Shown: positions 9,199 through 41,270 of the stretch, in pieces
Position numbering within the stretch: position 1 is the first letter of the stretch
How the letters are laid out: each line of letters starts with the position of its first letter
Assembly: GCF_031157255.1 (NCBI RefSeq)
Contig: NZ_JAVIFX010000001.1
Location: 186,001-250,000 of the forward strand
Source: Bradyrhizobium sp. LHD-71
GTDB lineage: Bacteria; Pseudomonadota; Alphaproteobacteria; Rhizobiales; Xanthobacteraceae
DNA length: 64,000 nucleotides
Reading direction: 5' to 3'
Program-made: the position numbers and the translations under genes
Notes under the pieces: model-generated
The model's input: the letters and a program-made list of their open reading frames with translations, nothing else
Database searches by the model: none
Told to the model about the DNA's origin: nothing

Positions 9199-9951
9199 AT
9201 GCGCGCGCCGGACTGGCTGACCGCCCGGCCCGTGGCCCATCGCGGCCTGCACGACCGCGCGCGAGGTATCATCGAGAACATGCCGTCGGCGATCGAGGCT
9301 GCGATCGCCGGCAACTTCTCGATCGAAGTCGACGTTCAGCTTACCGCCGACGGCGAAGCGGTCGTGCATCATGACGATGTCCTGGGACGACTGAATGAGG
9401 GCCGAGCAGCACTGGTCACGCTGACGGCGGCGCAGCTGAAGCAGGTGCCGTTCAAGGATACGACCGAGCGCATGCTCACGCTTGGCGAGCTCGGCGATAT
9501 GGTCGCAGGACGCGTGGCGCTGGTTATCGAGGTGAAGAGCCGTTTCGACGGCGACCGCAAGCTGGTGACACGTGTGGCCCAGGTGTTGGCGTCCTACCGC
9601 GCCCCTGCCGTTGCGATGTCGTTCGATCCGGATCAGGTGATCGCGCTGAGGGAGCTCGCGCCCACCCTCGTGCGCGGAGTTGTCGCCCAGCGCCGCTATC
9701 ACGAGGACGAATGGACCAGGGCCTCGGTCGCGCAACGACACCAGATGACGGCGCTCCGGCACGCTTTTCGCACGCAGCCGCACTTCGTCGCCTATCGTGT
9801 CGATGAGCTGCCTGCGCCCGCCCCTTGGATCGCTCGCAAGTTGTTCGGCTGCCCGCTCCTCACCTGGACGGTGCGCACCCAGGACCAGCGTGCGCGCGCC
9901 GCTCAATACGCCGATCAGATGATTTTCGAAGGGTTTGTGCCGGAGAGTTGA
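9199..9951 (+). CDS. Glycerophosphodiester phosphodiesterase family protein
   Basis: The 250-residue protein has the GDPD TIM-barrel signature: AHRG near residues 13-16, ENMPSAIEAA, then IEVDVQLTADGEAVVHHDD with its metal and catalytic Glu, Asp and His. Later strands include VALVIEVKSRFDGD. These enzymes release glycerol-3-phosphate from deacylated phospholipids. No signal peptide is visible, so it is probably cytoplasmic like UgpQ. The start at 9199 sits 7 bases after the RidA stop. Confidence 0.88.
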   Translation: MRAPDWLTARPVAHRGLHDRARGIIENMPSAIEAAIAGNFSIEVDVQLTADGEAVVHHDDVLGRLNEGRAALVTLTAAQLKQVPFKDTTERMLTLGELGDMVAGRVALVIEVKSRFDGDRKLVTRVAQVLASYRAPAVAMSFDPDQVIALRELAPTLVRGVVAQRRYHEDEWTRASVAQRHQMTALRHAFRTQPHFVAYRVDELPAPAPWIARKLFGCPLLTWTVRTQDQRARAAQYADQMIFEGFVPES

Positions 9952-10206
9952 AGCGAGGGATCATCGGCCATGCTGGTGCGGTGTTTCTGACATTCCGATC
10001 ACTCTTGCCGCAAGCCCGTTCGTCGGAACTCCAGAAGCAAAAACCACACTAGAATCATAAAGTTGCGAGCGTTCTTTGTTGCTCGTTCGCGCGAACGACT
10101 CGCGGCGAAGTGAGCGAGCGATCGGAAACAGGACACTGCCGCCACGTGGCATTCGCGCCCCCTTATCTGCTAATCTTAGGGCATCCGCGGACAATCTCCG
10201 GTCCCT

Positions 10207-11439
10207 ATGCCCCCTTCCCAAATCGAATTTCAGGCGGTTCCCTCGATCGACGACATCCCGGCGGAGGCCTGGGATGCCTGCGCCAATCCGGCGGTCGGCA
10301 CCGATGCGAATATTTCGGCCGGCGGTTCACCCTGCACCGCCAGAGAACGGTACAATCCTTTTGTCCGGCACGCGTTCTATCATGCGCTGGAGGCCTCCCG
10401 CTCGGCCTGTCCGCGCACCGGTTGGGGGCCCCAGCACCTGATCGCCAGACGCGGCAGCGACATCGTCGGCGTGGTGCCGTGCTACCTGAAATCGCATTCG
10501 CGCGGTGAGTATGTGTTCGATCACGGCTGGGCCGACGCGTATGAGCGCGCCGGCGGGCGCTACTATCCGAAGCTGCAGGTCTCCGTGCCGTTCACGCCGG
10601 CGAGTGGCCCTCGCCTGCTCGTCCGCGAGGGTGCTGCCGACACGACCGCGGTCCGCGATCTGCTCGCAAAAGGCCTGATGGCCCTGTGCCGGACCGTGAA
10701 GGCCTCGTCCGTCCACGTCACGTTCACACGAAAGGACGAGTGGGAACTGTTGGCGAAGAACGGCTTCCTGCAACGAACCGACAAGCAATTCCATTGGGAG
10801 AACCAAGGCTATTGCAGCTTTGAGGATTTCCTTGGTGCCCTCAACTCGCGCCATCGTAAGCAGGTCAAGCGCGAGCGGCGCGAAGCCGTCGCGAACGGCA
10901 TCACCATCGAGCATCTGACCGGCAAGGATCTGAACGAAGCCGCCTTCGACGCCTTCTTCAGGTTCTACATGGAGACCGGCTCACGCAAATGGGGCTCGCC
11001 ATATCTCACCCGTGAGTTCTATTCGCGCGTCGCCGAGTCGATGCCTGACGACATTCTGCTGGTGATGGCGAGGCGCAATGGTCGCTGGATTGCAGGTGCA
11101 ATCAACTTCATCGGCTCGGAGACGCTGTTCGGTCGCCATTGGGGCGCGATCGAGCACCACCCGTTCCTGCATTTCGAAGTCTGCTACTATCAGGCCATCG
11201 AGTTTGCGATCCGACGCGGCCTGAAACGCGTCGAGGCCGGTGCCCAGGGCGAGCACAAGCTGGCGCGAGGTTATCTGCCGACGGAGACGTTCTCGGCACA
11301 TTACATCCCCGACCCGGGGTTCCGGCATGCCGTCGCCGGCTATCTCAAGCGCGAGCGGCAATATGTGTCGCATGCGGTGGACGAGCTGACAGAGTATGCG
11401 CCGTTCCGGAAGGCCACCGACAGCAGCGACGAGGCATGA
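10207..11439 (+). CDS. COG3146-type acyltransferase-like protein (tandem GNAT/FemAB fold)
   Basis: The 410-residue protein matches a conserved bacterial family related to GNAT and FemX/FemAB transferases. The order is WDACANP, then a large domain with YVFDHGWADAYERAGGRYYPKL, then SRHRKQVKRERREA, FYMETGSRKWGSPYLT, and a final EAGAQGEHKLARGYLPTETFSAHYI. FemAB-like proteins add amino acids to peptidoglycan, but the substrate of this branch is not established. It is downstream of the RidA-GDPD pair after a gap of 255 bases that holds a 16-bp palindrome at 10083-10098, and it lies 67 bases before the HIT gene. Confidence 0.8.
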   Translation: MPPSQIEFQAVPSIDDIPAEAWDACANPAVGTDANISAGGSPCTARERYNPFVRHAFYHALEASRSACPRTGWGPQHLIARRGSDIVGVVPCYLKSHSRGEYVFDHGWADAYERAGGRYYPKLQVSVPFTPASGPRLLVREGAADTTAVRDLLAKGLMALCRTVKASSVHVTFTRKDEWELLAKNGFLQRTDKQFHWENQGYCSFEDFLGALNSRHRKQVKRERREAVANGITIEHLTGKDLNEAAFDAFFRFYMETGSRKWGSPYLTREFYSRVAESMPDDILLVMARRNGRWIAGAINFIGSETLFGRHWGAIEHHPFLHFEVCYYQAIEFAIRRGLKRVEAGAQGEHKLARGYLPTETFSAHYIPDPGFRHAVAGYLKRERQYVSHAVDELTEYAPFRKATDSSDEA

Positions 11440-28180: not shown

Positions 28181-28682
28181 CTGGGGCATTTCCGCCGATG
28201 AGATCTTGGGTTTTGCAGAACGGAGCGAGGCGAACGTCTGGACCATGGCAGAAAAGCGAAGCATCCCCTTGACGAGCAGTTGCGACGAACCCAATGAGGC
28301 CCATCCCCTGGCCATCATAAAGTCCGTACACCCCGGATTCCAGAGCGAGAGTGGCCTTTGGCAGTGTAAGGAGGGGCCCCCTCGCGGTTGAAATCCTCTA
28401 ATTTTCCATATGGGTTCGCGGCGGGCCGGCCGCAACGGGCCATCTCTGCCGGCCGATCGCCCTGTTTTTGCGCTCGGGCAATCGCAATCCTCAGTTAATG
28501 GAAACGGGACGCCGGGCCACAAAAGGGTCGGCCCCCGTTCAGGATCCGTTGGCGATATTCATTGAAGATTGCATTCGAGCCAAAAAACACGTCGCCATTT
28601 ACTCAATTCGGCTATCGGATTTACCACCCCTTCACGCCTGAAACCTACCGATCGGTTCCATTGCCGACGACTAGGTGCAGCT
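28181..28682. other. Divergent intergenic region between clpS and the TadG-like gene
   Basis: This stretch of about 500 bases must hold the promoters for clpS (minus) and the TadG-like gene (plus). No convincing gene, strong hairpin or consensus promoter was recognised. The ribosome-binding site of the plus-strand gene (AGGTG) lies at its end. Confidence 0.4.
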
Positions 28683-30050
28683 ATGACGCTCCAGCGGATT
28701 GTGAATGGTTTGGGGGGCGTTTGCGCCCGTTTTGTCCGCAGTGAGCGGGGCAATGTGGCGATGATGTTCGCTGTCACGCTGCCGGTTCTGCTGACCGCCG
28801 TCGGCGCGGCGATCGATTACAGCCGGGCGGTCAATGCTCGCTCGGCGATGCAGGCGGCGGTCGACGCCACGGCGCTGATGATCTCCAAGGAGGCGTCGAG
28901 CCTCAACCCGGAGGAGATCACCACCAAGGCGCATGCCTACTTCAACGCACTCTATACGCATTCCGAAGTCGCTGACGTCAGCTTCAACGCCACCTACACC
29001 CCCAACGCAGGCAACGGCGCCAGCGTCGAGGTGATCGCGTCGGGCTCGGTGCAGACCGACTTCATGAAGTTTGCCAGTATAACCGACATGCCGATCAATG
29101 TCGCCTCCACCACCAAGTGGGGTAACATCCGCTATCGCATCGCTCTGGCGCTCGACAACACCGGCTCGATGTCCAGCGCCAGCAAGATGGAGGAACTGAA
29201 GAAGGCCGCCAACAAGCTGATCGGCGACTTCTACGACATGGCGACCACAAACGAGGACGTCTACATCTCGATCGTGCCGTTCGCTAGAGATGTGAACATC
29301 GGCACTGACAAGAAGGATGCGAACTGGATCCGCTGGACCGAATGGGACAACGACAACAAGAAGAAAGTCTGCACCAAGTCGCAATACACGACGAAGCGGA
29401 AGTGTGAGGACAACGGGGGAACTTGGAATACGGTCACTGCTCCTCACACCGATTGGAATGGTTGCGTGATGGATCGCGACCAGGATTTCGACACCACCAA
29501 CACGCCGCCGGATCCTGCAGTCACAGCCACCATGATCCCCGCTTGGCAGTCCGAGGCCTGTCCGACTGCCATGATCGGCATGACTTCGGTGAAAGCCTCG
29601 AAACAGACGCTGCTCGACAAGATCAGCGCCATGCGGCCGAACGGCAGCACCAATCAGGGGATCGGCATGTTCTGGGCGTGGCTCACCCACGCAAACGCGG
29701 GCCCATTCCCGACACCTTCCAAGGATTCGACCTACGTGTATCAGGACGTGATCATCCTGCTTACCGACGGTCTGAACACCGAGAACCGCTACGATGGCGA
29801 CGGACGAAATCATTCGACACGGGTCGACGCTCGGCAAGCGCTTCTTTGCACCAACGCGCGCGCGCAAGGCATCAAGATCTTTGCGATCCAGGTCGCAACC
29901 GATCGCGATCCCGTATCGACAGTGACGAAGAACTGTGCCAGCGAGCCAGACAATCCGAACTACTTCAGCCACATCACCCAGGCGTCGCAGATGACAGTGA
30001 AGTTCCAGAACATCTTCAAGGAGCTTGCGAAGCTACGCGTCGCAAAGTGA
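28683..30050 (+). CDS. TadG-like pilus assembly protein with von Willebrand A domain
   Basis: The 455-residue protein has an N-terminal TadE/TadG anchor (RSERGNVAMMFAVTLPVLLTAVGAAIDYSRAV, membrane helix about 25-46). A periplasmic vWA domain starts near residue 150. Its metal site is of the DxTxS type (D158, T160, S162 in LDNTGSM), with LLTDGLN further on. An insertion with paired cysteines (CTKSQYTTKRKC) separates the blades. Tad pili mediate surface attachment. No other tad genes are near, so this is an orphan tadG, as is common in Bradyrhizobium-type genomes. The start at 28683 is chosen from AGGTG upstream. Confidence 0.85.
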   Translation: MTLQRIVNGLGGVCARFVRSERGNVAMMFAVTLPVLLTAVGAAIDYSRAVNARSAMQAAVDATALMISKEASSLNPEEITTKAHAYFNALYTHSEVADVSFNATYTPNAGNGASVEVIASGSVQTDFMKFASITDMPINVASTTKWGNIRYRIALALDNTGSMSSASKMEELKKAANKLIGDFYDMATTNEDVYISIVPFARDVNIGTDKKDANWIRWTEWDNDNKKKVCTKSQYTTKRKCEDNGGTWNTVTAPHTDWNGCVMDRDQDFDTTNTPPDPAVTATMIPAWQSEACPTAMIGMTSVKASKQTLLDKISAMRPNGSTNQGIGMFWAWLTHANAGPFPTPSKDSTYVYQDVIILLTDGLNTENRYDGDGRNHSTRVDARQALLCTNARAQGIKIFAIQVATDRDPVSTVTKNCASEPDNPNYFSHITQASQMTVKFQNIFKELAKLRVAK

Positions 30051-30443
30051 CGACGTGAAGCAATCAAGCGATACCGGCTCCTCCGTGGAGCCGAGACCTG
30101 GCATTCCCGGGCTTCTCTTGCCGCCCGAAATGCGAGCGCCGCACGGTCCACGCACACCCGCACAACCCACCGCAAATATACGACCGTATACCGTCCTTAT
30201 GCTGCAGCAGCTTTGACCGCCCCGCTGCGAATGTGAACAGTGAGCGCGGCTCGTCGCCGTAGTAGCTAGCCTGAAGCTGTTCAGATGACGGCCCCGGCTC
30301 TGACGCACTGGCGGCAGGCCGGGGGCAGCGGAATGTAATCGGTCTGGGGATGGCGCCGCTCGCCGTGCGACAGGCTCGCAACAGGTTTGTTATGATCATC
30401 GGATATCGGCGCCGATAGACCGCGCTTGGGGATGTGGCATCGG
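30051..30443. other. Intergenic region before the fusion porin
   Basis: This 393-base gap holds a short hairpin after the TadG-like gene (GGCTCC 30076-30081 / GGAGCC 30087-30092, no T-run) and the palindrome at 30177-30190. No gene is convincing. The porin promoter should lie here. Confidence 0.4.
30177..30190. promoter_or_regulatory. Operator-like palindrome, copy 1 (TATACG-AC-CGTATA)
   Basis: A 14-base inverted repeat with 6-base arms lies about 255 bases before the porin start. The same arms recur at 33016-33029, and a looser copy occurs at 38591-38604. The sites are all intergenic, which suggests binding by one regulator. The FixJ-type protein at 33119-33766 is the obvious candidate. Confidence 0.5.
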
Positions 30444-32420
30444 ATGAAGAACGCAGTGTCCGAAATCGGGATCAAATGCTTGATCCTGAGCGCCTTGGGA
30501 ACAGGCCCCGCGCTTGCCGCCGACGCCATGAGAGCCCCCTCGCCCAGCTTTGGATGGCAGGGCCTTTATCTTGGCGGGCACGTCGGCTACGGCGCGGGCA
30601 CCTTCGGTCGCGACACACAGCCGCTGCCCAGCCAGGGCGTCTTTTTTCCGCACAGCCTCACCGGCATGATCGGCGGCTATCAGGCCGGCTACAACTGGCA
30701 GCTCTCGAGCAATGTCATCTTTGGGCTCGAGGCCGATATCTCGTTCACGAGCCCGCTCGACCGTCCTCCGCTGCAGCCGGCGCCATTCAATACGACATTC
30801 GATTATTTCGGCACGGCGCGCGGCCGGATCGGCTACGCGTTCGGGACGCTGCTTCCTTACATCACCGGCGGGCTTGCGTTCGCCGGGACACATGTCGACC
30901 TCAACGATGCCACGGGCGAACCGCTCGTGAGGCGCAGCCGCACACATCTCGGTTGGGCCGTCGGCACCGGCGTCGAGGTCGCGCTGCGAGATGGCTGGTC
31001 GGCCAAGCTCGAATACACCTATTTGAATTTCGGGGTGCAGACCTATGGGCTGGCCGACCTCGCTCTGCCGGACGTGCGCGTCGCACCTGACATCCACACC
31101 GTTCGCCTCGGGCTGAACTACAAGATCTGGGATGCGCGCGCCGCGGACGGTCAGACGATACGCCCGCTGACATTGCCCGAGGGAGGTGACTGGAACGTCC
31201 ACGGCCAGACGACGCTGATCGCTCAAGGGTACCCGTCGTTCCGCTCCCCCTATCAGGGGCCCAACAGCCTGCCCGGCGGAGGACGCGGCCGCGAGACCTG
31301 GACCGTCGGCGCATTCCTCGGATGGCGCCTGTGGGAAGGTGGCGAACTCTATTTCGGACCCGAGCTTGCGCAAGGGTTCGGCATCGGCAACTCGCTGGGC
31401 CTCGCCGGCTTCTCCAACGGCGAAGCGCAGAAGGGCGGCGCGGAGTATCCGAAGTTCAGACCTCAGCGCTATTTCTTTCGGCAGACGTTCGGCCTTGGCG
31501 GCGAGCAGGAAACGGTCGCAGATGCCATCAATCAGCTGCCGGGAAAGCGCGACGTCGATCGCATCACCATCAACATCGGGCGCTTTGCCGTGGGCGATTT
31601 CTTCGACGGCAATTCTTACGCCAAAGACCCACGCGTCGATTTTCTCAACTGGTCGATGTGGGCTGCGGCGGGATGGGATTTTCCGGCCGACCTGCCGGGC
31701 ATGACGAGAGGCGCCGTCATCGAGCTCAATCGCAAGGACTGGGCCATTCGGGCTGGCGCGTTCCAGGTGCCATCAGCGCCGAACAGCGACGTGCTCACCT
31801 TCGACACGGGAGGCGTCGTCGTCGAGTTTGAGGAACGCCACACGATCTTCGGCCAACCGGGCAAGCTGCGCGTCGGCGTATTCGCAAACCGCGGCAATAC
31901 GGCGAATTACCGCGAAACGGTGGCGCTTGCCGCCATCGAACCCGAACTCGACATCGACGACATCAAAGTCGCCAACCGGCGCGACCGCTCCAAGTACGGC
32001 GTCTACGCCAACCTCGAACAGCAGATCATAACTGACGTCGGTTTGTTCGCCCGTGCGAGCTGGAACGACGGCCGCAACGAGATCCTGTCGTTCACCGACA
32101 TCGACCGCAGCATTTCAGGCGGCCTGTCGATCAAGGGAAGCCATTGGGGCCGTCCGATGGATACGTGGGGTATCGGCGGCGCCGTGAACGGGCTTTCGCA
32201 AGCCCACCGCGAGTTCCTGGCGGCGGGCGCCACAGGCCTCCTGATCGGCGACGGCCGGCTGAACTACGCTCATGAGCGCATCTTCGAGACCTTTTACTCG
32301 ATCGGGCTGTGGACCGGGGCCGCGTTGACCGCCGACTACCAGTTCATCACAAACCCGGCCTACAACGCCGATCGTGGCCCAGTTTCCATTTTTACGGGAC
32401 GCTTCCACGCGGAGTTTTGA
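30444..32420 (+). CDS. Double-barrel outer-membrane protein: Omp25-like barrel fused to OprB-type carbohydrate porin
   Basis: The 658-residue protein has a signal peptide (CLILSALGTGPALA). Residues about 35-225 are an 8-strand barrel like rhizobial RopB/Omp25 (WQGLYLGGHVGYGAG, GGYQAGYNWQ, ARGRIGYAFG, KLEYTYLNFG, HTVRLGLNYKI). After a linker, residues about 245-658 match OprB carbohydrate-selective porins (GRETWTVGAFLGWRLWEGGELYF, FNINIGRFAV-like IGRFAVGDFFDGN, AGWDFPADLPG, and a C-terminal barrel strand ending in Phe, GRFHAEF). Each half is close to full length for its own family. The start at 30444 follows GGGGAT; TTG at 30426 is an alternative. A role in sugar or small-solute uptake is inferred. 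Confidence 0.85.
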   Translation: MKNAVSEIGIKCLILSALGTGPALAADAMRAPSPSFGWQGLYLGGHVGYGAGTFGRDTQPLPSQGVFFPHSLTGMIGGYQAGYNWQLSSNVIFGLEADISFTSPLDRPPLQPAPFNTTFDYFGTARGRIGYAFGTLLPYITGGLAFAGTHVDLNDATGEPLVRRSRTHLGWAVGTGVEVALRDGWSAKLEYTYLNFGVQTYGLADLALPDVRVAPDIHTVRLGLNYKIWDARAADGQTIRPLTLPEGGDWNVHGQTTLIAQGYPSFRSPYQGPNSLPGGGRGRETWTVGAFLGWRLWEGGELYFGPELAQGFGIGNSLGLAGFSNGEAQKGGAEYPKFRPQRYFFRQTFGLGGEQETVADAINQLPGKRDVDRITINIGRFAVGDFFDGNSYAKDPRVDFLNWSMWAAAGWDFPADLPGMTRGAVIELNRKDWAIRAGAFQVPSAPNSDVLTFDTGGVVVEFEERHTIFGQPGKLRVGVFANRGNTANYRETVALAAIEPELDIDDIKVANRRDRSKYGVYANLEQQIITDVGLFARASWNDGRNEILSFTDIDRSISGGLSIKGSHWGRPMDTWGIGGAVNGLSQAHREFLAAGATGLLIGDGRLNYAHERIFETFYSIGLWTGAALTADYQFITNPAYNADRGPVSIFTGRFHAEF

Positions 32421-32492
32421 CTTAACGCATCATCCACTCCGACCGGGATCATGGCTCGAAACGGGATGCCTTGCCTGGATCCACACTGCGCG

Positions 32493-32512
32493 CCAGCGCT
32501 TCGCTGGTTGTT
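32493..32512 (+). terminator. Possible terminator after the fusion porin
   Basis: CCAGCG, a 3-base loop and CGCTGG are followed by TTGTT, about 75 bases beyond the porin stop and ahead of a convergent gene. The stem is short. Confidence 0.4.
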
Positions 32513-32539
32513 GAAACGACAGCAGCGCTAACGACAGTG

Positions 32540-32914
32540 CTAAAGAGCGACTTCAAGCGCGGCATCGATACGGCTGATCAGATCCTCCTCGCTGAACGGC
32601 TTCGTCAGATAGGCAATCAATCCAGACTTCAGTGCCTGCGCTTTGACTCCCTCGTCCGGATAAGCGGTGATCAGGATCATTGGAATGGCGTGGCCGGATG
32701 CAATCAGGCGCGCGTAGAGTTCGAGGCCACCGATGCCAGGCATTTGAACGTCGGCAATCAAGCATCTTGTGCTCCGGAGCGCGTCGGATTTAAGAAATGT
32801 CTCTCCGTCTGGAAATGCTTCGACGCCGAAACCGAGCGAATTCATGAGATCGACGGTCGCTTCGCGTACCGATTGATCGTCGTCGACGATAGAGATGACC
32901 GCTTGCGTTGGCAT
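32540..32914 (-). CDS. Receiver-only response regulator
   Basis: The 124-residue protein is a bare receiver domain close to the FixJ receiver. It has the acidic pocket D11-D13, phosphoacceptor D55 (CLIADVQMPGIGG), T83 in ILITAY and K105 in YLTKPF. It has no output domain, so it may act as a phosphate sink or an adaptor for the histidine kinase encoded upstream. It is separated from the FixJ-type gene by about 200 bases that contain a perfect palindrome, so it probably has its own promoter. Confidence 0.88.
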   Translation of the reverse strand: MPTQAVISIVDDDQSVREATVDLMNSLGFGVEAFPDGETFLKSDALRSTRCLIADVQMPGIGGLELYARLIASGHAIPMILITAYPDEGVKAQALKSGLIAYLTKPFSEEDLISRIDAALEVAL

Positions 32915-33015
32915 CTTGCCCTGCCATGATCAATGTCGACCCACTCGCCGCGCCTTGCTGGCAACCAATACTCCTGGACGCGCTGAAGGTCAGGAGCGCA
33001 AGGGGATAGCGACGC

Positions 33016-33029
33016 TATACGGCCGTATA
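33016..33029. promoter_or_regulatory. Operator-like palindrome, copy 2 (TATACGGCCGTATA)
   Basis: This is a perfect 14-base palindrome about 100 bases before the receiver-only gene, in the gap after the FixJ-type gene. It shares both 6-base arms with the copy at 30177-30190. Confidence 0.55.
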
Positions 33030-33118
33030 TCACTAGCCGCGCTTACCGACTCCGTTCGAAGTCGCCTGCATCCCGGCCGCGACGAGCTCTCGACCATCCG
33101 CATCCCGACAGGTGCTGG

Positions 33119-33766
33119 CTAACCAGTCCTGACGACGCTCTTGAGCCTATCGGCCAGTCGGACAAGTTCAGCCAAGGATTTCGCCCGCATCTTCCGCATA
33201 ATGCGACCGCGTCTGACCTTCACCGTAATCTCGCTCAAGCCAAGTTCCGCCGCGATCTGCTTGTTGAGAAGACCAGTGACGACAAGCGCCATGACCTTTC
33301 GTTCACCCTCCGTCAGCTCAGCAGATCGCAGCCGAAGATCGGCCATGGCCGCCGCTTCCTGGCGTCTGACGCGGTCATGTTCGATTCCAAGCTGGATCGC
33401 ATCGAGCAACTCTTGATCGCGAAACGGCTTGGTCAGGAACTCGATCGCGCCACCCTTCATCGCTCGCACGGTCATCGGAATATCGCCATGGGCGGTAATG
33501 AAGACGATCGGTATATCGATGTTCAGTCTGGCCAACTCGCGTTGAAGGTCGAGGCCGCTCATACCCGGCATCCGGATATCGAGGACAAGGCACGCCGGGA
33601 CGTCGGGACGCTCGCCCTGCAAGAAGTCGTCAGTCGAAGCAAAGGATCGTCCCTCCAGTCCAACCGACGCGAGGAGGTCTTCCAGGGCGTCGCGTACGGA
33701 GGGATCGTCATCAATGACGAACACCAGCGGCCGCTCACCCTGGGCAATGGCAGCTCCCTGGTTCAT
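33119..33766 (-). CDS. FixJ/NodW-family response regulator with LuxR-type HTH
   Basis: The 215-residue protein has a receiver domain (D19-D21, phosphoacceptor D63 in LVLDIRMPG, FITAHGD, FLTKPF). A LuxR/FixJ helix-turn-helix follows (about 150-205: TEGERKVMALVVTGLLNKQIAAELGLSEITVKVRRGRIMRKM). It is the DNA-binding partner of the kinase whose stop codon it overlaps by 4 bases (minus-strand ATGA, 33763-33766). Its targets could be the TATAC-N4-GTATA sites in this region; that is inference. Confidence 0.92.
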   Translation of the reverse strand: MNQGAAIAQGERPLVFVIDDDPSVRDALEDLLASVGLEGRSFASTDDFLQGERPDVPACLVLDIRMPGMSGLDLQRELARLNIDIPIVFITAHGDIPMTVRAMKGGAIEFLTKPFRDQELLDAIQLGIEHDRVRRQEAAAMADLRLRSAELTEGERKVMALVVTGLLNKQIAAELGLSEITVKVRRGRIMRKMRAKSLAELVRLADRLKSVVRTG

Positions 33767-34830
33767 GCCACTGTCTTTCCTTCAATCGGAAGCGTGAACT
33801 GAAAGACGGCACCGCGCGGGGTCCCTGTTTCCGCCCACAATCGTCCGCCATGCATTTCGACAATCGAACGGCTGATCGTTAATCCAAGACCCATGCCCTC
33901 TCGCTTGGTCGTGTAAAAGGCATCGAAAAGTCGTGCAATTTTTCCTGCTTCCAGCCCGCCACCGGAGTCGTGAATCGCTACGATGGCACTGCCGGTCCCG
34001 TCCCTCACGGTTCTGATCAACAATTGTCGCGGCCCGTCGGCACTCATGGCTTCGATGGCATTGATGGTCAAATTCAGGATCACTTGCTGCAGTTGAATGC
34101 GATCTGCCAACGCCAACGGTATATCCTCTGCAAGCTGCATTTGCAGCGAAATGCCGCTCTTTTCGATTTCGCTGCGCGTCAGGGCGAGCGTCTCCAGTAT
34201 CACGTCATTTATACTGAGCCATTTTCGCTCCTCCGGTGGCGCTCTCTTCGCGAGACCGCGAATCCGGCCGATAATGTCGCTCGCTCGATTTGCGTCCCTG
34301 AGCATTCGTTCGACGGCCTGCTTGGCCTTTTCGAGATTGGGAGGCTGAGCCGACAGCCAGCGCAAACAGGCGTTGCCGCTGGTGACGACACCGGTGATCG
34401 GTTGATTGACCTCATGGCCTATGGATGCCGTCAGTTCGCCCAGAGTCGTCACGCGAGCGACGTGCGCTAGCTGCGCGCGAGCTTCGTGCACCGCGGCCTT
34501 CGCTGATTCGATTTTCAGAGCCAGATAGGTCGTGGCCCCGATAGCTGAAATGCTGATGATGCAGTTGATCAACCCGGACTGTAGCGAACCGGTGCGCGTC
34601 AGAGCGAAGCTCAGGACCGTTAGCGCCACGCATCCCGCAAAGACCAGCCAAACACCGCGTGTGCGACAGAAATTCAAGGATAGCAGCACGACAGCGACAT
34701 AGAAGACAGCAACGGCGATCTCCAGATCGGTCGCAGTATCCGCAACGAAGATCGCCGCAGCCAGTAAGGCCGTGGTGATCGGCGGGATCATCGACGGAGA
34801 CGTCGCCCAGAAATGCCGGCTGGATCGCAC
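33763..34830 (-). CDS. Membrane sensor histidine kinase
   Basis: The 355-residue kinase has about four N-terminal membrane helices (15-105) with almost no periplasmic loop. This suggests it senses through the membrane or through a partner. The phosphoacceptor is H139 in GHEVNQPITG, of the FixL/NodV-type HEVNQP box. ATPase motifs are NLTINAIEAM (N), DSGGGLEAGKIARLFDAFYTTK (G1/F) and GMGLGLTISRSIVEMHGG (G2). It starts with GTG at 34830 behind GGAGGTGA, only 26 bases after the ABC ATPase gene. The two-component system is therefore probably cotranscribed with the transporter. Confidence 0.92.
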   Translation of the reverse strand: MRSSRHFWATSPSMIPPITTALLAAAIFVADTATDLEIAVAVFYVAVVLLSLNFCRTRGVWLVFAGCVALTVLSFALTRTGSLQSGLINCIISISAIGATTYLALKIESAKAAVHEARAQLAHVARVTTLGELTASIGHEVNQPITGVVTSGNACLRWLSAQPPNLEKAKQAVERMLRDANRASDIIGRIRGLAKRAPPEERKWLSINDVILETLALTRSEIEKSGISLQMQLAEDIPLALADRIQLQQVILNLTINAIEAMSADGPRQLLIRTVRDGTGSAIVAIHDSGGGLEAGKIARLFDAFYTTKREGMGLGLTISRSIVEMHGGRLWAETGTPRGAVFQFTLPIEGKTVA

Positions 34831-34856
34831 GTGATCTCACCTCCCCTTAGGTCGCA

Positions 34857-36170
34857 TCAAGCCGGGTTCTCAAGCGTGAATACGTCGGCCTCTTCGTCAT
34901 AGGCGAAGTACTCGGCATAGCGTGCCCAGCTGGTGACGGCCTTCACGGTCTCGGCTGCGTAGTCTTCCGACATATGGTCCTCGAGTTCATCCCGAAAACG
35001 CCGCGCCGGGGCCTGATGACTCGACCGCTCGTCGAGAACACGGCGGATGTGCGCGGCAAGCGGAACATAGGTTGCCAGTTGCTGGGCAAACAGGCGCTTG
35101 CGTTCGTCGACATCGCTCGTTGCAAAGCGCATACCGGCGGCCGTCAGGCGGATATCGCCCTCCTCCAGCTCTGCAAATCGCAGGAGCTGCAAAGTCTCTG
35201 CGATCGGAAAGAGGTCGTCGACCTCGAGCTGCAGACCTGCTGCGAGCGGCGGCAGATCGGCGTGTCCGCGGTAGGGTTCAGCCGCCACGGTTTCGATCAG
35301 CCCGGCAAGCCGGTTGGACGACACGCGCGGCAGAACCATGGCGATGCCCGTGCCGGGAAAGAAACCATCGCGCGCCGGCGTACCCGATTTCATCGTCATC
35401 CGCGCATAGACGTCGTCCACAAGTTTTCGAAACGCAGGGTCGAGGCGATTGCGCGGCTGCGGCAGCTCGATCCGGATTTCGGCGACGACACGCCCAGGGT
35501 TGGATCCAAAGATGAGAATGCGATCGCACATCAACACCGCCTCTTCGATGTTGTGGGTGACCATCAGGATCGACTGCATCGGCATGCGTCCTTCCGCCCA
35601 CAGGTCGAGCAGATCGGTGCGCAAGGTCTCGGCCGTCAGGACGTCCAGGGCCGAGAACGGCTCGTCCATCAGCAGGACCTTGGGATGCACGACCAGCGCC
35701 CGCGCCAGCCCGACCCGCTGACGCATGCCGCCGGAGAGCTCCTTGGGATAGGCACTCTCGTAACCATCGAGGCCGATCAGGTCGATCGCAGCCAACGCCG
35801 GCCGGCGGCGTTCGGCGGGTGCGAGCCCGCGAGCTTCTAGCCCCAGCTCGACGTTCTGCAGAACGGTCAGCCAGGGGAAGAGCGCAAAGCTTTGGAACAC
35901 CAGCGCCATGCCGGCGGGCGGGCCCGTCACCGGCGCGCCCTCGAACGCAATCCTGCCATCGCTCGGCCGAATGAGACCCGCGATCGCGCGCAGGAGCGTC
36001 GACTTGCCGCTTCCCGAGCGGCCAAGCAAACCGACGATTTCGCCCGGCCGAAGAGTCAGGTCGACGTTATCGAGAACGACGAGCCGACCCGAAGCTCCCT
36101 TGTCGTAGGTTTGACATACGCCTTGCACCGAGATGAGAGGCACATCGTTGACAGAGCGGGCGGCGTCCAT
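34857..36170 (-). CDS. ABC transporter ATPase with AAA-associated C-terminal domain
   Basis: This protein of about 437 residues begins with an ABC ATPase of the nitrate/sulfonate class: Walker A GRSGSGKST (50-58), FQSFALFPW, LSGGMRQR (145-152) and VLLMDEPFSALD. After residue about 275 it carries a 160-residue extension ending in WARYAEYFAYDEEADVFTL. This matches the AAA-associated C-terminal domain found in a distinct set of ABC ATPases. The start at 36170 follows GGAGGAA. It lies 21 bases after the permease gene. Confidence 0.88.
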   Translation of the reverse strand: MDAARSVNDVPLISVQGVCQTYDKGASGRLVVLDNVDLTLRPGEIVGLLGRSGSGKSTLLRAIAGLIRPSDGRIAFEGAPVTGPPAGMALVFQSFALFPWLTVLQNVELGLEARGLAPAERRRPALAAIDLIGLDGYESAYPKELSGGMRQRVGLARALVVHPKVLLMDEPFSALDVLTAETLRTDLLDLWAEGRMPMQSILMVTHNIEEAVLMCDRILIFGSNPGRVVAEIRIELPQPRNRLDPAFRKLVDDVYARMTMKSGTPARDGFFPGTGIAMVLPRVSSNRLAGLIETVAAEPYRGHADLPPLAAGLQLEVDDLFPIAETLQLLRFAELEEGDIRLTAAGMRFATSDVDERKRLFAQQLATYVPLAAHIRRVLDERSSHQAPARRFRDELEDHMSEDYAAETVKAVTSWARYAEYFAYDEEADVFTLENPA

Positions 36171-36191
36171 GGCATTCCTCCGCATGGTTGG

Positions 36192-37946
36192 TCAGTTCAG
36201 ACGCAGGCGGCGCTCGGCGAACACATAGAGCGGACGCCAGAGCATGCGGTTGAACAGCGTGACGAACAGCGACATGACGCCAATGCCCAGCACGACGCGC
36301 GGAAAGTCTCCGGCTGCGGTCGCCTTGGCGATGTAGGCGCCGAGGCCATAGGCTTGGAGCCTGGTGTCACCCCAGCTTGCGACCTCCGCCACGATGCTGG
36401 CGTTCCAGGAGCCGCCGGAGGCAGTCAGCGCGCCCGTGACATAGTAGGGAAAGATGCCCGGCAGAATGACTTTGCGCCACCAGGTCCAGGACCGCAGGTG
36501 ATAGATCGCCGCCGCCTCCCGAAGGTCGCTCGGAAACGCACTCGCGCCCGCGATGACGTTGAAGAGGATGTACCACTGCGTCCCGAGCACCATGAGCGGC
36601 GAGAGCCAGATGTTGGGATCGACGCCCGTTGCGACGATCCCCATCACCGCGAAGGGAAACAGCACATTGGCCGGGAAAGCAGCGAGGAACTGCGCCAGCG
36701 GCTGAACACGCTCGGCGACAACCGGCCTCAGTCCGATCCACACTCCGATGGGAACCCAGATCAGGCTCGCGACCGCGATCAGAATCACGACGCGTGAAAG
36801 CGTGGCCAAGCCGCCTCCGAAGGCCTCGAACGCGTCACGCCATGACAACGTCTGGCGCACATAGTCGATGACAAGCCAGGCCCCACACGCCGTTACAGCG
36901 ACGACGACTGCGAGCCAGAGATAATCAACGGACGATGACGTGCGCCTGCTCCGCGCCGTTGCCAACCTGGGCATGCGTGCGCCAAGCCGCAACATCAGGA
37001 GGCGTTGCCAGATCCAGCCGAACGGCGCCAGCAGGTGCTTCACTAGCGAGGTCCGCCGGATGAGACCGTACATCCAGGACCGCGGCTTTTGCTGACTGGC
37101 GGTCTGCTCGGCGCGAAACTTGTCCGCCCACGCCACGACCGGCCGGAACAGGAGCTGATCGTAGAGAAGGATGACAAACGCCATCGCCAGGACAGCCCAC
37201 CCCACGGCGGCGAAATCCTGCTGGTCGATGGCAAGGGCGAGATAGGAGCCGATCCCGGGAAGCTGGACTGTCGTGCTGCCGACCGTGATGGCCTCGGAAG
37301 CGACAACGAAGAACCAGCCGCCCGACATCGACATCATCGTGTTCCAGATGAGTCCCGGTGCAGCAAACGGTGCCTCCAACCGCCAGAACCGTTGCCAAGC
37401 CGAAAGCCCGAAGCTGCGGCTCGCCTCATCGAGATCGCGCGGCACAGTTTTCAGCGACTGGTAGAACGAGAAGGCCATGTTCCATGCCTGACTCGTGAAG
37501 ATTGCGAAGATCGACGCGCATTCAGCGCCGAGTTCACTTCCTGGAAAAAGTCCCATGAAGAAGGTGACGGTAAAGGTGAGGAAGCCGAGCACCGGCACCG
37601 ACTGCAGGATGTCAAGCGCAGGGATGATGATCAGTTCGGCACGACGGCTCTTGGCTGCGAGCGCCGCCACGACGAAAGTGAACAACAGTGAGGCGAAGAT
37701 CGCCGCGAACATGCGCAATGTCGTGCGCAGCGCATATTCGGGAAGCCCGGCAACGTCCAGCGAGACAGGTTCGCGCGACAACGCGTCGAGCGAGTCACCC
37801 ATGCCGGCCGCCCCGTGCGCGGCAAGGATGACCAGGGCCGCAATGAGGGAGAACGCGGCCAGGTCATAGACATTCGGTCGCATGCGAGCGCGCACGAGCG
37901 CGGCGACGGCGCCGAGCGCCGGACGATCGTCAGGAAGAAAGACCAT
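36192..37946 (-). CDS. Double-length ABC transporter permease (two permease domains in one chain)
   Basis: The 584-residue protein contains two tandem permease units. Each has about five or six helices and its own ATPase-coupling loop: EASRSFGLSAWQRFWRLEAP (174-193) and EAAAIYHLRSWTWWRKVILP (477-496). One chain therefore replaces a permease dimer. It resembles the nitrate/sulfonate/bicarbonate class and pairs with the extended ATPase downstream. No substrate-binding protein gene is present nearby. The start at 37946 (MVFLPDD) is preferred; the frame stays open to 38399 through the small gene upstream but is shadow there. Confidence 0.85.
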   Translation of the reverse strand: MVFLPDDRPALGAVAALVRARMRPNVYDLAAFSLIAALVILAAHGAAGMGDSLDALSREPVSLDVAGLPEYALRTTLRMFAAIFASLLFTFVVAALAAKSRRAELIIIPALDILQSVPVLGFLTFTVTFFMGLFPGSELGAECASIFAIFTSQAWNMAFSFYQSLKTVPRDLDEASRSFGLSAWQRFWRLEAPFAAPGLIWNTMMSMSGGWFFVVASEAITVGSTTVQLPGIGSYLALAIDQQDFAAVGWAVLAMAFVILLYDQLLFRPVVAWADKFRAEQTASQQKPRSWMYGLIRRTSLVKHLLAPFGWIWQRLLMLRLGARMPRLATARSRRTSSSVDYLWLAVVVAVTACGAWLVIDYVRQTLSWRDAFEAFGGGLATLSRVVILIAVASLIWVPIGVWIGLRPVVAERVQPLAQFLAAFPANVLFPFAVMGIVATGVDPNIWLSPLMVLGTQWYILFNVIAGASAFPSDLREAAAIYHLRSWTWWRKVILPGIFPYYVTGALTASGGSWNASIVAEVASWGDTRLQAYGLGAYIAKATAAGDFPRVVLGIGVMSLFVTLFNRMLWRPLYVFAERRLRLN

Positions 37947-38053
37947 GGCAAGCCTCGCGGCAATCGAGACCGATACTCGCCCTGCCCGGCGACATGAGCC
38001 GTGCGCGCTTGCGCCCTGCGGATACCTGCAAGCGCAACATCGGTTGAGCTGGG

Positions 38054-38296
38054 TTACGCGGCGCGGCGCAAACTGTCGCCATCGTCGGTTGCCGCGGCTT
38101 CGGTCCAACGGCACTCGAGCCGTCCGCTTGTCGGGTTCGTGTGCCAGCCGGCAACGAGCGCGCGGCGTACCGGCGCTCGCGGTCGCCCCTCCATGGGGAG
38201 AACGGCGGTAGTTCTTGTTTTGAAGGTGTTCGCCCGCTCGGAACGTGACGCGGGCGCCGCGACATTCTCGCGAAGAAAGACGATGTTCTTGTTCAT
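38054..38296 (-). CDS. Small uncharacterised protein, 80 residues
   Basis: The protein begins MNKNIVFLRENVAAPASRSE, has an arginine-rich middle and ends in a short ALVAGWHTNPTSGRLECRW segment with paired aromatic residues. The start is strongly supported by GGGAGGTAAGCC directly before the ATG. No membrane helix or signal peptide is seen. It is the first gene upstream of the double permease, with a 107-base gap, and is probably in the same transcription unit. Function is unknown; it could be a small regulator or accessory protein of the transporter. Confidence 0.7.
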   Translation of the reverse strand: MNKNIVFLRENVAAPASRSERANTFKTRTTAVLPMEGRPRAPVRRALVAGWHTNPTSGRLECRWTEAAATDDGDSLRRAA

Positions 38297-38590
38297 GGCT
38301 TACCTCCCGGAAATGTCCCCTGCAGGACCCGGGAGGCGAAGCGGACAGACCTTTATCTGGCCCAGCCGGCACTCGCCCGGCGGGTGATGCCGGGAGCAAT
38401 CCTGGTTGACGGGTTGAGTGTCCGACAGAAGTTTCGCGTCTCTGCCGGACAGCGACTAGGGTAGCTGTCCATTACCTGCTTCGTTTGATCGAGAAATGGC
38501 TCCGGAACCGGAAGGCCGCGCGGGGAATGCGCCCCAAAATCGAACGTGTCAAGCGACCAATGCGCCTCTACGGGCGGACATTCCGAAAAT

Positions 38591-38604
38591 TATACTCATG
38601 TATA
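38591..38604. promoter_or_regulatory. Operator-like palindrome, copy 3 (TATAC-TCAT-GTATA), in the 38297-38645 gap
   Basis: An inverted repeat with 5-base arms lies 41 bases before the DUF1194 gene, in the 349-base divergent gap that also leads to the small protein and transporter genes. It is the weakest of three related sites. Nothing else was recognised in the gap. Confidence 0.4.
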
Positions 38605-38645
38605 TGCAATCAGAATTGTGATCGTCGGGTCGGCCGGGGATCGCT

Positions 38646-39725
38646 ATGCTTTTCCTCGAAACCGGCAGCGGAGTTCGCAAGTTGGTTCGAGCTGTTCGAT
38701 CTGCATTGATCGCACTTGTTCTTGCGATGGCGGTCCACCTGTCGTCGGCGAAAGCCGGCGAGCCGGTCGATATGCTGCTGGTGCTGGCAGCGGATGTTTC
38801 GCGCAGCGTCGACCAGCAGAAGTTCCAGCTTCAGCGCGAGGGCTACGCTGCCGCGATCTCGAATCCGAACGTGTTAAATGCCATCGTTTCCGGCACTCAC
38901 CAGCGGATTGCATTGGCCTTTGTCGAATGGTCCGGTGCGGATTCACAGAAGGTCGTGATCGACTGGACGCTTATCAGCGACAAGGCGTCTGCACGCCGCT
39001 TCGGCGACCAGCTCCTGGAAGCGCCCCGCTCCTTCGCGGACCGCACGTCCATCAGCGGCGCAATCGATTTCGCAGCAACCCGCTTCGATAATGCCCCTTT
39101 TGAATCCAATCGGCGAACGATCGACGTATCTGGCGATGGCAACAACAATTCCGGCCGCGACGTGACCGTCGCCCGCGATGCGGCACTGGCCAAGGGTATC
39201 ACGATCAACGGGCTCGTCATCCTGACAGAGAACCCACAGCTATGGGATTCCGACCACACCAATCCCCCTGGCGGGCTGGAAGCCTACTATCGCGACAACG
39301 TCATCGGCGGGCCCGGTGCCTTCGTGATCGCTGCGAAGAACTTCGAGTCGTTTGGTGAGGCCATCACCAAAAAGCTGGTCGCAGAAATCGCCCAAGGACC
39401 CGATCTGCAAGACGCGCCGGAGCGCAGTGCTCAGCCGCGCCCTTCATCGATCGTAAGAGCCGCGATGCCATTGCAAATCCTCGGGCGCGAGCCAAGCGAA
39501 GGAGTAGTTCGAAGTGAAGATCGCTGCGATGACCCTGATCGCATTGTTGTTCACAATGCCGCTGTTCGCCATGCATCTTTATGCGAGGGCTTACGTGCAG
39601 CCTGTTATCGAGCAGCCGAACGATTGCAAGGATCCCAGTTCGCGACCCGGATCGAGAGCGGACGTGTCAGTCCCACCGCGCTTCTTTGGGACGCTCGCCT
39701 GAGCCCTGACCGCGCAAGGCGCTGA
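38646..39725 (+). CDS. Secreted DUF1194 von Willebrand A protein with a doubtful C-terminal tail
   Basis: The 359-residue protein has a signal peptide (SALIALVLAMAVHLSSAKA) and a DUF1194-type vWA domain (about 40-250). It keeps a full metal site: DVSRS (D50, S52, S54), T134 in RTSISGAI and D164 in VSGDGNNNSG. The family domain ends at AITKKLVAEIAQ (about 250). The remaining 109 residues are arginine-, serine- and proline-rich and overlap another reading frame with better coding features, so a frameshift that removed the normal stop is likely. It is divergent from the ABC/two-component operon and convergent, 2 bases apart, with the OprB-type gene. Confidence 0.82.
   Translation: MLFLETGSGVRKLVRAVRSALIALVLAMAVHLSSAKAGEPVDMLLVLAADVSRSVDQQKFQLQREGYAAAISNPNVLNAIVSGTHQRIALAFVEWSGADSQKVVIDWTLISDKASARRFGDQLLEAPRSFADRTSISGAIDFAATRFDNAPFESNRRTIDVSGDGNNNSGRDVTVARDAALAKGITINGLVILTENPQLWDSDHTNPPGGLEAYYRDNVIGGPGAFVIAAKNFESFGEAITKKLVAEIAQGPDLQDAPERSAQPRPSSIVRAAMPLQILGREPSEGVVRSEDRCDDPDRIVVHNAAVRHASLCEGLRAACYRAAERLQGSQFATRIESGRVSPTALLWDARLSPDRARR
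39514..39702 (+). CDS. Possible small exported protein overlapping the DUF1194 tail
   Basis: A 62-codon frame starts with GTG at 39514, nine bases after AAGGAG. Its N-terminus (MTLIALLFTMPLFAMHLYA after a short lead) looks like a signal peptide or membrane helix. It lies wholly inside the DUF1194 frame. In the third frame a TGA (39515-39517) overlaps this GTG as GTGA, the coupling pattern expected if the DUF1194 gene really ended there. It could be a real small gene or chance. Confidence 0.4.
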   Translation: MKIAAMTLIALLFTMPLFAMHLYARAYVQPVIEQPNDCKDPSSRPGSRADVSVPPRFFGTLA

Positions 39726-39727
39726 CT

Positions 39728-41155
39728 TCAATAGCGCATGGTTGAGCGTATCCCGACGATCACGGCGTTCCTGACAGGCTCGGTGGGTGACGCGTCGCCG
39801 GCAACGTGCCCGCCGGGATGGAACACGAACTGCAGGTTTGGCTGCACGGTCCAGCCCGGCGCGATGCTCGCGGAATAGGACAGATCGAACGACAGCTCGT
39901 AGTCGCGCAGTGGCGTCGGCAAGCCGGTGAAAAGTCGCGCGTCGTGATCGAACGCGCGCGCATGCTTTGAAACATGCGCGTAGAGAAACGATGCGCCGAA
40001 CGCGTCGGCGGGACGCTGCGGGATCAGGCCTGCGAAGATGATGCCGCCATCGAGATAGAAATCGACGAGGTTGCGATCCGGCGGGCTCCAGGCGGCGCGC
40101 GCGAACAGCAAGACGCCTGAATTGGCGTCGCCGCCCGGCGGCCGGTAGAGCTGCTGATCGAGCACTGCATAAATCCCGTCATTGCCGTGCACGCGACGCG
40201 CAATGCCGACGCTGAGCGGGCTTGCGAGCGAAAACCCGTTGATGTCGAAGCGCAGGTGATCGAACCGGTCGAAGTGGTGCCAGCCGCCGAAGCGGATGCC
40301 GCCGGCGAGGCCTTTCGCCGTCGGCTCCTGGTTATAGCGATACTGCAGTTCGCCGATCACGAACGGCGGATCGTTGACGCGAAAGTTCAGGCCGTGGCGG
40401 TTGCATTGCTCGGGTTCGAACCCGCACGCGCCGGCTGGATCGCCGTTGAATACGGCGAGCAGCGCGGTGGTCTGCGGCGTCGGGTCTAGCTTCAGCCGCA
40501 CGCCCGGCGTCGATAGCGGGTATGCCGGCCCAGCACTCGGAATGCCGGCTTTCGGGTTGGTTGGCCAATCGCTTGAGATGAAGAAGCCGAAATACTGGCT
40601 GAACAGGAATTCGGTGTCGACCACCAGCTGGCCGGCGCGCAGGCTCGCCATGCCGCCGAACAGCTGCTGTTCGAGCCAGAGCTCCGAGAGCCGCGTCGCC
40701 GGCAGCGCCTCGATGTTGCTGACCGTGTTCAAGCCGCCGATCAGGTTGCGATTTGGGCCCTTGCTGCCGTGAAGCTGAAAGGCGTTGGCGTAGAAGCTCA
40801 AGCCGTCGAGCCCTGCGAGCCGGCCGAGATCAACGCCGATCATGGCTTCGAGCTTCCCATCGAAGATGGTGCGGCGCCGGACCCCGCCTGCGACGTTCGA
40901 CAAGACCTCGGTGGTGTGGATTAGGCCGAAGGTGATGCCGCGCTCTGCAAGCCAGCGCCGCGCACCGAACGGGTCGCCATCCTCTGGCAGGCTGGTCGCG
41001 ATCGTCGGCTGCGGAGACACGCCCGGCGGCGGATCGCCCTGCCCGAAGGCGGACGACGTCAGCACAAGGACGGTTGCGGTCGAAACGAGCGCCCGGCGCA
41101 AAGCCGGCGGCAGACCATTGACGTTTCCCACATCGACAACAGTCAGCCCACGCAT
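39728..41155 (-). CDS. OprB-type carbohydrate-selective porin
   Basis: The protein of about 475 residues has a long N-region and signal peptide (RRALVSTATVLVLTSSAFG). An OprB-type barrel follows: GVDLGRLAGLDGLSFYANAFQLHG, WLEQQLFGGMASLRAGQLVVDTEF, AGGIRFGGWHHFDRF, and a C-terminal TVQPNLQFVFHPGG then VIVGIRSTMRY. It ends in an aromatic residue as outer-membrane proteins do. The start at 41155 is chosen; GTG at 41185 is also possible. An iron-box-like sequence lies about 90 bases upstream, so iron or manganese control is possible. Confidence 0.86.
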   Translation of the reverse strand: MRGLTVVDVGNVNGLPPALRRALVSTATVLVLTSSAFGQGDPPPGVSPQPTIATSLPEDGDPFGARRWLAERGITFGLIHTTEVLSNVAGGVRRRTIFDGKLEAMIGVDLGRLAGLDGLSFYANAFQLHGSKGPNRNLIGGLNTVSNIEALPATRLSELWLEQQLFGGMASLRAGQLVVDTEFLFSQYFGFFISSDWPTNPKAGIPSAGPAYPLSTPGVRLKLDPTPQTTALLAVFNGDPAGACGFEPEQCNRHGLNFRVNDPPFVIGELQYRYNQEPTAKGLAGGIRFGGWHHFDRFDHLRFDINGFSLASPLSVGIARRVHGNDGIYAVLDQQLYRPPGGDANSGVLLFARAAWSPPDRNLVDFYLDGGIIFAGLIPQRPADAFGASFLYAHVSKHARAFDHDARLFTGLPTPLRDYELSFDLSYSASIAPGWTVQPNLQFVFHPGGHVAGDASPTEPVRNAVIVGIRSTMRY

Positions 41156-41244
41156 CGACAGCGATCCCCAACACCGGCCGCTCACGCGACGGTCCCCGCA
41201 GCCGGCGACCCCAATGATCCAAGCCCGGCCAGTTCGCGAAGATT

Positions 41245-41270
41245 GATAATGATAATGAGAAGCATTCGCA
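41245..41270. promoter_or_regulatory. Fur-box-like sequence upstream of the OprB-type porin
   Basis: The 19 bases from 41245 (GATAATGATAATGAGAAGC) match 15 of 19 positions of the classical Fur box. The overlapping 15-mer TGAGAAGCATTCGCA (41256-41270) keeps the partial 7-1-7 symmetry of an iron box. It lies 60-115 bases before the porin start. Confidence 0.5.

Follow-up and report, generated by a model that had tools for sequence, protein, structure and literature searches.

The closest described relative of the locus examined here is a two-gene system of Candidatus Liberibacter asiaticus (CLIBASIA_02415/02420), reported in 2012 as "a possible novel ABC system" (ABC, ATP-binding cassette) with no substrate given (Li et al., 2012; PMC3688454). 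Its permease carries two transmembrane domains (TMDs) in tandem, its ATPase ends in a PF09821 domain predicted to be a winged helix, it comes without a binding protein, and it is related to the Nrt, Ssu and Tau transporters (PMC3688454). I analysed a stretch of 64,000 nucleotides from Bradyrhizobium sp. LHD-71 (contig NZ_JAVIFX010000001.1, positions 186,001 to 250,000; hereafter the window), in which an ABC pair shows all three traits of the 2012 system: a tandem permease, a fused PF09821 domain and no adjacent binding protein. The initial annotation of this DNA had proposed an undescribed uptake and sensing system, a description that has to be withdrawn for the ABC pair because it was already reported in 2012. 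The section of that report dealing with the system mentions no porin or two-component system and proposes no metal link (PMC3688454), and in these respects the window is unlike it.

Three observations appear to be new. An OprB-type porin is repeatedly found next to the pair, in many cases within one operon with it, and one type of short membrane kinase with a FixJ-type regulator adjoins the pair here and at four other loci; the direct neighbours of the pair are enriched in divalent-metal genes; and in a genus labelled g25, probably Bradyrhizobium, the porin-permease-ATPase operon carries a palindromic box like that found before mntH, which the five kinase loci lack. Because metal-gene neighbourhoods occur in several phyla and the box is shared with mntH, I read the locus as an uptake module that spans the cell envelope and takes in a small inorganic ion, of which Mn2+ or a divalent metal like it is the likeliest, a reading for which the evidence seems to me about evenly balanced.

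The ABC pair and its missing receptor

The window's permease (36192 to 37946, minus strand) contains two BPD_transp_1 stretches by Pfam, that is, two NitT/TauT-type transmembrane domains in tandem. It is followed on the same strand by the ATPase (34857 to 36185), which combines ABC_tran with a C-terminal PF09821 domain, AAA_assoc_C (E 2.4e-44, 151.2 bits against a cut-off of 27.6). The ATPase retains its Walker A, LSGG, DEPF and H-loop motifs, and the catalytic motifs are conserved across an alignment of 14 sequences. An AlphaFold2 model of the permease (predicted local distance difference test, pLDDT, 78.5) has two repeated halves and a type I importer fold, with FbpBC, CmpBCD and NrtBCD as its best Foldseek matches. 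The PF09821 domain was modelled separately (pLDDT 90.6) and in the model is of the winged-helix type; a fold search with this model returned winged-helix matches at Z of 8 or less and no specific relative, and since these matches were tied with unrelated proteins, no function was read from them. The pair thus shares its type of ATPase and permease, and its importer fold, with the NitT/TauT importers (NrtBCD, CmpBCD, SsuABC, TauABC), which in the 2012 comparison differ by having binding proteins and single-TMD permeases and by lacking PF09821 (PMC3688454).

PF09821 is present in 38 of 149 genomes of the family Xanthobacteraceae and in 23 of 289 genomes of the class, and a match to the C-terminal domain was found in 100 of 391 family genomes, three of them weak. 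Among the best 80 of 593 matches, record titles name Alpha-, Beta- and Gammaproteobacteria, Cyanobacteria, Bacillota, Actinomycetota, Acidobacteria, Chloroflexi and archaea. Besides the window's own, 98 of 105 places in the family were fetched, leaving out G075, G251 (twice), G256, G282 and the weak copies of G026 and G204; L128 (G261), a weak copy with an in-frame stop, was kept out of the counts. The weak C-terminal-domain matches in G026, G204 and G261, all of genus g26, each carry one in-frame TAG. The ATPase is accompanied by a permease match at 93 of 97 family loci, the misses being three contig ends and L091, and at all 20 class loci. At L091 (G352) the porin is followed directly by the ATPase (about 9802-11115), and the tandem permease gene is missing from an otherwise intact arrangement. 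In two archaeal metagenome-assembled genomes (MAGs; Bathyarchaeota, L225, and Euryarchaeota, L230) a PF09821-type domain looks to be a separate gene directly after a short ATPase, which looks like a split version of the fusion.

One pair is retained in a genome of only about 0.9 Mb that is given as 100% complete (G560; L145, locus GC content 0.34), and such retention suggests that the pair has an important role. A Tn5 study places the L. crescens permease orthologue in the essential set, and relatives of those genes are described as upregulated in planta (PMC4837290). No substrate is assigned to the pair in the literature found by domain, COG and locus names.

No binding protein was detected by Pfam among the ten open reading frames (ORFs) scanned at the locus, and not one of 181 loci with the pair has an adjacent NMT1-type binding protein on the same strand (-4.2 to +2.4 kb). 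The search of the 181 loci used profiles from three NMT1-type binding proteins, with 16 ABC loci lacking the PF09821 part (L233-L248) as a positive control; an NMT1-type protein lies somewhere in the stretch at 15 of these 16 loci, against 32 of the 181. The initial annotation had remarked on a missing receptor in this one locus, and the observation proves general for the PF09821 ABC family, as far as NMT1-type receptors go: a binding protein encoded with its transporter, the canonical NitT/TauT arrangement, is not found for the pair. Several more distant proteins were considered as the missing receptor and rejected. In many g25 loci NMT1-type proteins lie 6-9 kb off on the opposite strand, and in the loci mapped they have their own ATPase and single permease; the L139 protein, at +2.9 kb on the same strand, lies beyond an opposite gene and is followed by its own permease and ATPase. 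At L091 an adjacent NMT1-type protein is encoded on the opposite strand, again beside its own ATPase and single permease. In some g25 loci, such as L058, L076 and L119, the region 5-9 kb upstream holds a complete ABC system that includes an NMT1-type binding protein, together with a creatininase-like gene; the binding protein was identified by profile and the families by eye.

Porin, operator box and metal-gene neighbours

On the plus strand of the window, convergent with the ABC operon, lies an outer-membrane porin gene (30426 to 32420) whose product joins an N-terminal OMP_b-brl to a C-terminal OprB part. That a porin belongs with the pair, as the initial annotation supposed, is borne out by its recurrence: at 29 of 117 loci (L084 being a fragment), 23 of them in g25, an OprB part falls between -6.5 and +5 kb relative to the ATPase, and none does so at 20 control stretches taken 100 kb away on the same contigs, where two weak matches to the N-terminal barrel part were seen. 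At 18 loci the porin immediately precedes the permease on one strand with a gap below 350 bases, and in 13 of these the gap is 4-31 bases. OprB porins also adjoin the pair in a Sphingomonas MAG (L173) and in Noviherbaspirillum (L195). Immediately before the window's porin (28569-30050, plus strand) there is a gene with a Tad/TadE-like N-terminus and a VWA-like region.

In Bradyrhizobium, mntH and mnoP are under Mur control. MnoP is located in the outer membrane of Bradyrhizobium, where it mediates the import of Mn (PMC9334652). Compared by description, the porins studied here resemble it in being outer-membrane channels of what is likely the same genus and, in g25, in having an operon that shares a box with mntH; they differ in that the passage on MnoP mentions no ABC partner (PMC9334652) and in that the window's porin has no box.

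The box is a conserved palindrome upstream of the porin in g25. Exact matches to the pattern TGCNAATNAWTNGCA occur in nine of 248 loci, each of which belongs to g25 and has the porin; in those placed, the match lies roughly 70-220 bases before the called porin start. The form TGCNAMTNAKTNGCA, with at most one mismatch, is found in 15 of 21 porin-upstream regions (the loci whose porin start could be placed by rule) against 0.65% of random stretches. For one group of Nramp (mntH-like) genes, 11 of 12 genomes have a box of this kind at the locus, whereas eight other Nramp loci have none; in the two cases measured it lies about 30 bases before the first ATG. The fetched loci, 3.71 Mb in all, contain 15 exact copies of the box, 11 in mntH loci and four before a porin. 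I take this shared box to be of the Fur/Mur type; it is seen in g25 and absent from the window, and a metal response is assumed for it.

The second line of evidence for a metal comes from genes next to the pair. Operon-type neighbours, defined as lying on the same strand with a gap below 350 bases, fall into 35 clusters (38 less two porin clusters and one permease fragment). Seven of the 28 clusters annotated by Pfam are of metal type (MgtC, CNNM/CorC, NikR, VIT1, rubrerythrin-VIT1, cation efflux and Metal_resist), against none of 20 control genes (of 21 chosen; Fisher p 0.016). Because the metal lead was already apparent when this frame was set up, the count is systematic and not blind. Representatives of the seven families, a ZIP-like gene and families seen later were then used as queries: 22 of 203 direct neighbours matched, compared with 16 of the 1151 remaining genes at these loci (Fisher p 6e-10) and none of 339 control genes. 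In independent genomes, drawn from the multi-phylum PF09821 matches (best 80 of 593), the figures are 7 of 112 direct neighbours against 3 of 499 others (Fisher p 4e-4); the seven comprise MgtE, a P-type cation ATPase twice and Trns_repr_metal by Pfam, and MgtC and cation efflux (twice) by phmmer only. Counted by homology cluster, 12 of 198 direct neighbours are of metal type, as are 2 of 853 other genes. Nine loci were skipped by the gene caller, and at the five of these whose neighbours were checked by eye no metal gene was seen.

At L083, L104, L108 and L111 metal-sensing-repressor-type and cation-efflux genes lie upstream of the pair, an arrangement which I take to be dmeRF-like; at L111 an MgtC gene stands between the repressor/efflux pair and the permease. 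Among the cyanobacterial loci, a CrcB-like gene lies near the ATPase in L197 (by eye) and L200 (by Pfam). Many of the pair's neighbours are housekeeping genes.

The window's presumed operon and two-component system

The initial annotation laid out the locus largely as it stands: the ORFs it claimed were all recovered with the expected domains by Pfam, as were the porin and DUF1194 genes flanking the minus-strand run on the plus strand. The run comprises, in order, a small protein (38054 to 38296), the tandem permease, the PF09821 ATPase, a membrane kinase (33763 to 34830), a FixJ-type regulator (33119 to 33766) and a receiver-only protein (32540 to 32914). The gaps of 107 bases between small ORF and permease, 26 between ATPase and kinase and -4 between kinase and regulator agree with those first given; that between permease and ATPase is 6 bases and not 21, the latter resting on a later ATPase start. 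A further 204 bases separate the regulator from the receiver-only gene, and the DUF1194 gene is divergent from the small gene. The small protein, of 80 amino acids and without a Pfam or NCBIfam match, heads the presumed operon, and it is probably a real gene because a homologue (36% identity, E 2e-6) sits at the same place, directly before the permease, in L069 (G291).

The kinase has HisKA and HATPase_c and no other Pfam domain; in particular no PAS domain was found by Pfam. Its hydrophobic segments all fall within residues 12-105, so it has little periplasmic part, much as the initial annotation described. The regulator, whose gene overlaps that of the kinase by 4 bases, joins a receiver to a GerE domain, and the next protein consists of a receiver domain alone (Pfam). 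Of the known systems FixL/FixJ is nearest, the regulator being of the FixJ type and the core of the kinase resembling that of FixL; the window kinase differs in that no PAS (haem) domain was found in it, and both proteins fall below the curated FixL/FixJ cut-offs (205.7 bits against 255 for the regulator).

As the initial annotation anticipated, the same kinase-regulator pair recurs beside the ABC pair, at four other loci: L069, L049 (G094), L061 (G087) and L177 (a Rhizobiaceae MAG). The kinases there are 48-55% identical to that of the window; the regulators are 60-63% identical in L069, L049 and L177 and 47% in L061. Placement varies: the kinase lies downstream of the ATPase in the window and L069 (with an opposite-strand gene between them in L069), upstream of the porin in L049 and L061, and divergent from the permease in L177. 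G087 holds six of the window's genes (kinase, regulator, receiver-only, porin, permease and ATPase) in another order. The receiver-only protein is the weakest member; it has a 49% match between regulator and porin in L061, and in L049 and L069, the other two loci compared, its best match lies at the regulator's place.

Altogether 23 short kinases of the window type were found in 391 family genomes (open frame 355-396 amino acids), four of them beside the ABC pair and six about 0.9 kb from a fusion porin without the pair there. Kinases with other input parts were left out of this count for that reason, namely the PAS-containing (by eye), FixL-like ones at L125 and L127 (L068 being cut short) and those at L085, L067, L131 and L135. 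Two-receiver proteins beside the pair, mostly in genus g35, appear PleD-like by eye and were also dropped. Genes in the relatives' loci were called with a simple program based on codon usage, and details of these calls may be in error.

The five kinase-type loci, the window included, lack the box that precedes the porin elsewhere (none of five against 15 of 19 other porin loci), though two of the five have no nearby porin. Upstream of the small gene lies a dyad, GGACAGC-N10-GCTGTCC (38447 to 38470, minus strand), which is conserved between the window and L069; in its exact 6-base-arm form it occurs once in the window and in one of 248 loci (L069). It is a candidate site for the FixJ-type regulator. 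No motif common to all five kinase loci rose above shuffled sequences. The Rfam models gave no match in the window at gathering cut-offs, and upstream of the small gene they gave only a match at chance level.

The DUF1194 gene (PF06707; 38646 to 39725, plus strand) encodes a VWA-like secreted protein that retains the DxSxS motif, in line with the metal site first noted. Its proposed role as periplasmic partner is nonetheless unsupported. Only 2 of 117 loci have DUF1194 close to the pair, and the genes lie elsewhere in 12 of the 15 genomes searched; the two loci are both in g25, with closely similar surroundings, and have DUF1194 on the other side of the pair, convergent. It was therefore rejected as a member and is probably not part of the system. 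DUF1194 has been tied to type 11 secretion loci, with no function assigned in the portion of that report bearing on it (PMC12282271). Beyond it, on the minus strand, comes a second OprB-type porin gene (39728-41185), whose sole match among 97 family loci is a weak one (29%) in L091; a box-like site with two mismatches (41256-41270) lies about 70 bases before it, at chance level for the window.

Proposed function and its alternatives

In the manganese or divalent-metal reading, the OprB-type porin would pass the ion through the outer membrane, and the permease and ATPase together would make up a type I ABC importer that needs no periplasmic receptor of its own. On the cytoplasmic side, the ATPase's winged-helix domain probably senses a state or ligand and gates the importer. 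In g25, where this kinase is not at the locus, the porin-permease-ATPase operon would be controlled through a Fur/Mur-type box as mntH is; in the window lineage, where the box is missing, the short membrane kinase and FixJ-type regulator have probably taken over control, the operon being suggested as their target by linkage. In a wider form, which I put forward tentatively and with some doubt, a receptor-less ABC family of many phyla carries manganese or similar divalent metals, part of the Alphaproteobacteria have equipped it with an OprB-type channel of its own (possibly MnoP itself), and the operon is under Mur control in Bradyrhizobium, with the kinase and FixJ-type regulator replacing the Mur operator in the window lineage.

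A number of results weigh against this reading. There is no box at the window's own operon or porin, and the best that precedes mntH in the window genome, some 15 bases from the first ATG, is a box with two mismatches, which may be due to chance (two-mismatch boxes occur in 2.6% of random stretches); of the 19 porin loci where the kinase is absent, four have no box. The metal families were chosen after the neighbours had been seen, and with the families of the first set only, the independent genomes give 3 of 112 direct neighbours against 0 of 499 others (p 0.006). The P-type ATPase and Trns_repr_metal families include members that are not metal-specific, and other neighbours of the pair, APS-kinase/CysN-like, PiT phosphate and CrcB genes, point elsewhere. 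As to the kinase, 13 of the 23 short kinases are near neither pair nor porin so far as seen, many contigs being short, and histidine kinase (HK) domains show no enrichment around the pair, with 18 in 2041 kb (0.88 per 100 kb) compared with 7 in the 400 kb of control sequence (1.75 per 100 kb); for receivers the figures are 2.21 and 0.75 per 100 kb. Kinases as a class thus not being enriched, the link is to the short kinase type. Finally, most pairs have neither porin nor window-type kinase. The initial annotation had named as evidence against itself a pattern in which the ABC genes always sit with a normal receptor gene and without the kinase, porin or DUF1194 gene; most pairs do lack these three nearby, but they have no adjacent receptor either.

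The nearest solved permeases also count against the metal reading: by sequence they are CmpB and NrtB, which carry bicarbonate and nitrate, and by fold they carry ferric ion, bicarbonate and nitrate. The pair could accordingly be an importer of an oxoanion or small organic anion (nitrate, sulfonate or bicarbonate) whose receptors are encoded elsewhere in the genome. ATPase and permease both score best with NitT/TauT-type models, there are many NMT1-type proteins per genome (at least 38 matches in G000, for example), and one neighbour of the pair is a sulfate-activation gene (APS_kinase and GTP_EFTU, at L129). Against such an importer stand the 181 loci without a co-directional adjacent receptor of the NMT1 type and the enrichment of metal-type neighbours, and a box shared with mntH would be unexpected for anion uptake. 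I therefore consider anion import unlikely.

Another possibility is that porin, kinase and regulator form a module for some other solute, to which the ABC pair, though often beside the porin, is unrelated. Six genomes (G041, G179, G197, G200, G377 and G381) have kinase and porin on the same strand, separated by about 0.9 kb, while the pair itself either lies elsewhere (G179) or was not found, and most pairs have no porin. Against this, the porin and permease lie 4-31 bases apart on one strand at 13 of 18 loci, most with the box before the porin, and the Sphingomonas and Noviherbaspirillum loci repeat the association outside g25; an unrelated pair is thus improbable. That the pair is no transporter at all, its winged-helix tail and the kinase instead reading the state of the membrane or of a metal, is in keeping with the question raised by Li et al. 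(PMC3688454) of whether the system is a transporter, with the winged-helix model and with a kinase lacking any input domain outside the membrane, but intact ATPase motifs, an importer fold and an operon with an outer-membrane channel make it very improbable.

The divalent-metal reading, with its box shared with mntH and its linked outer-membrane channel, makes the function of this pair testable in a tractable soil bacterium. The pair spans many phyla, has been kept in a genome of about 0.9 Mb and has its permease in the L. crescens essential set (PMC4837290). If the reading is true, the exchange of a Fur-type operator for a two-component system in the window lineage would be a clear case of regulatory replacement.

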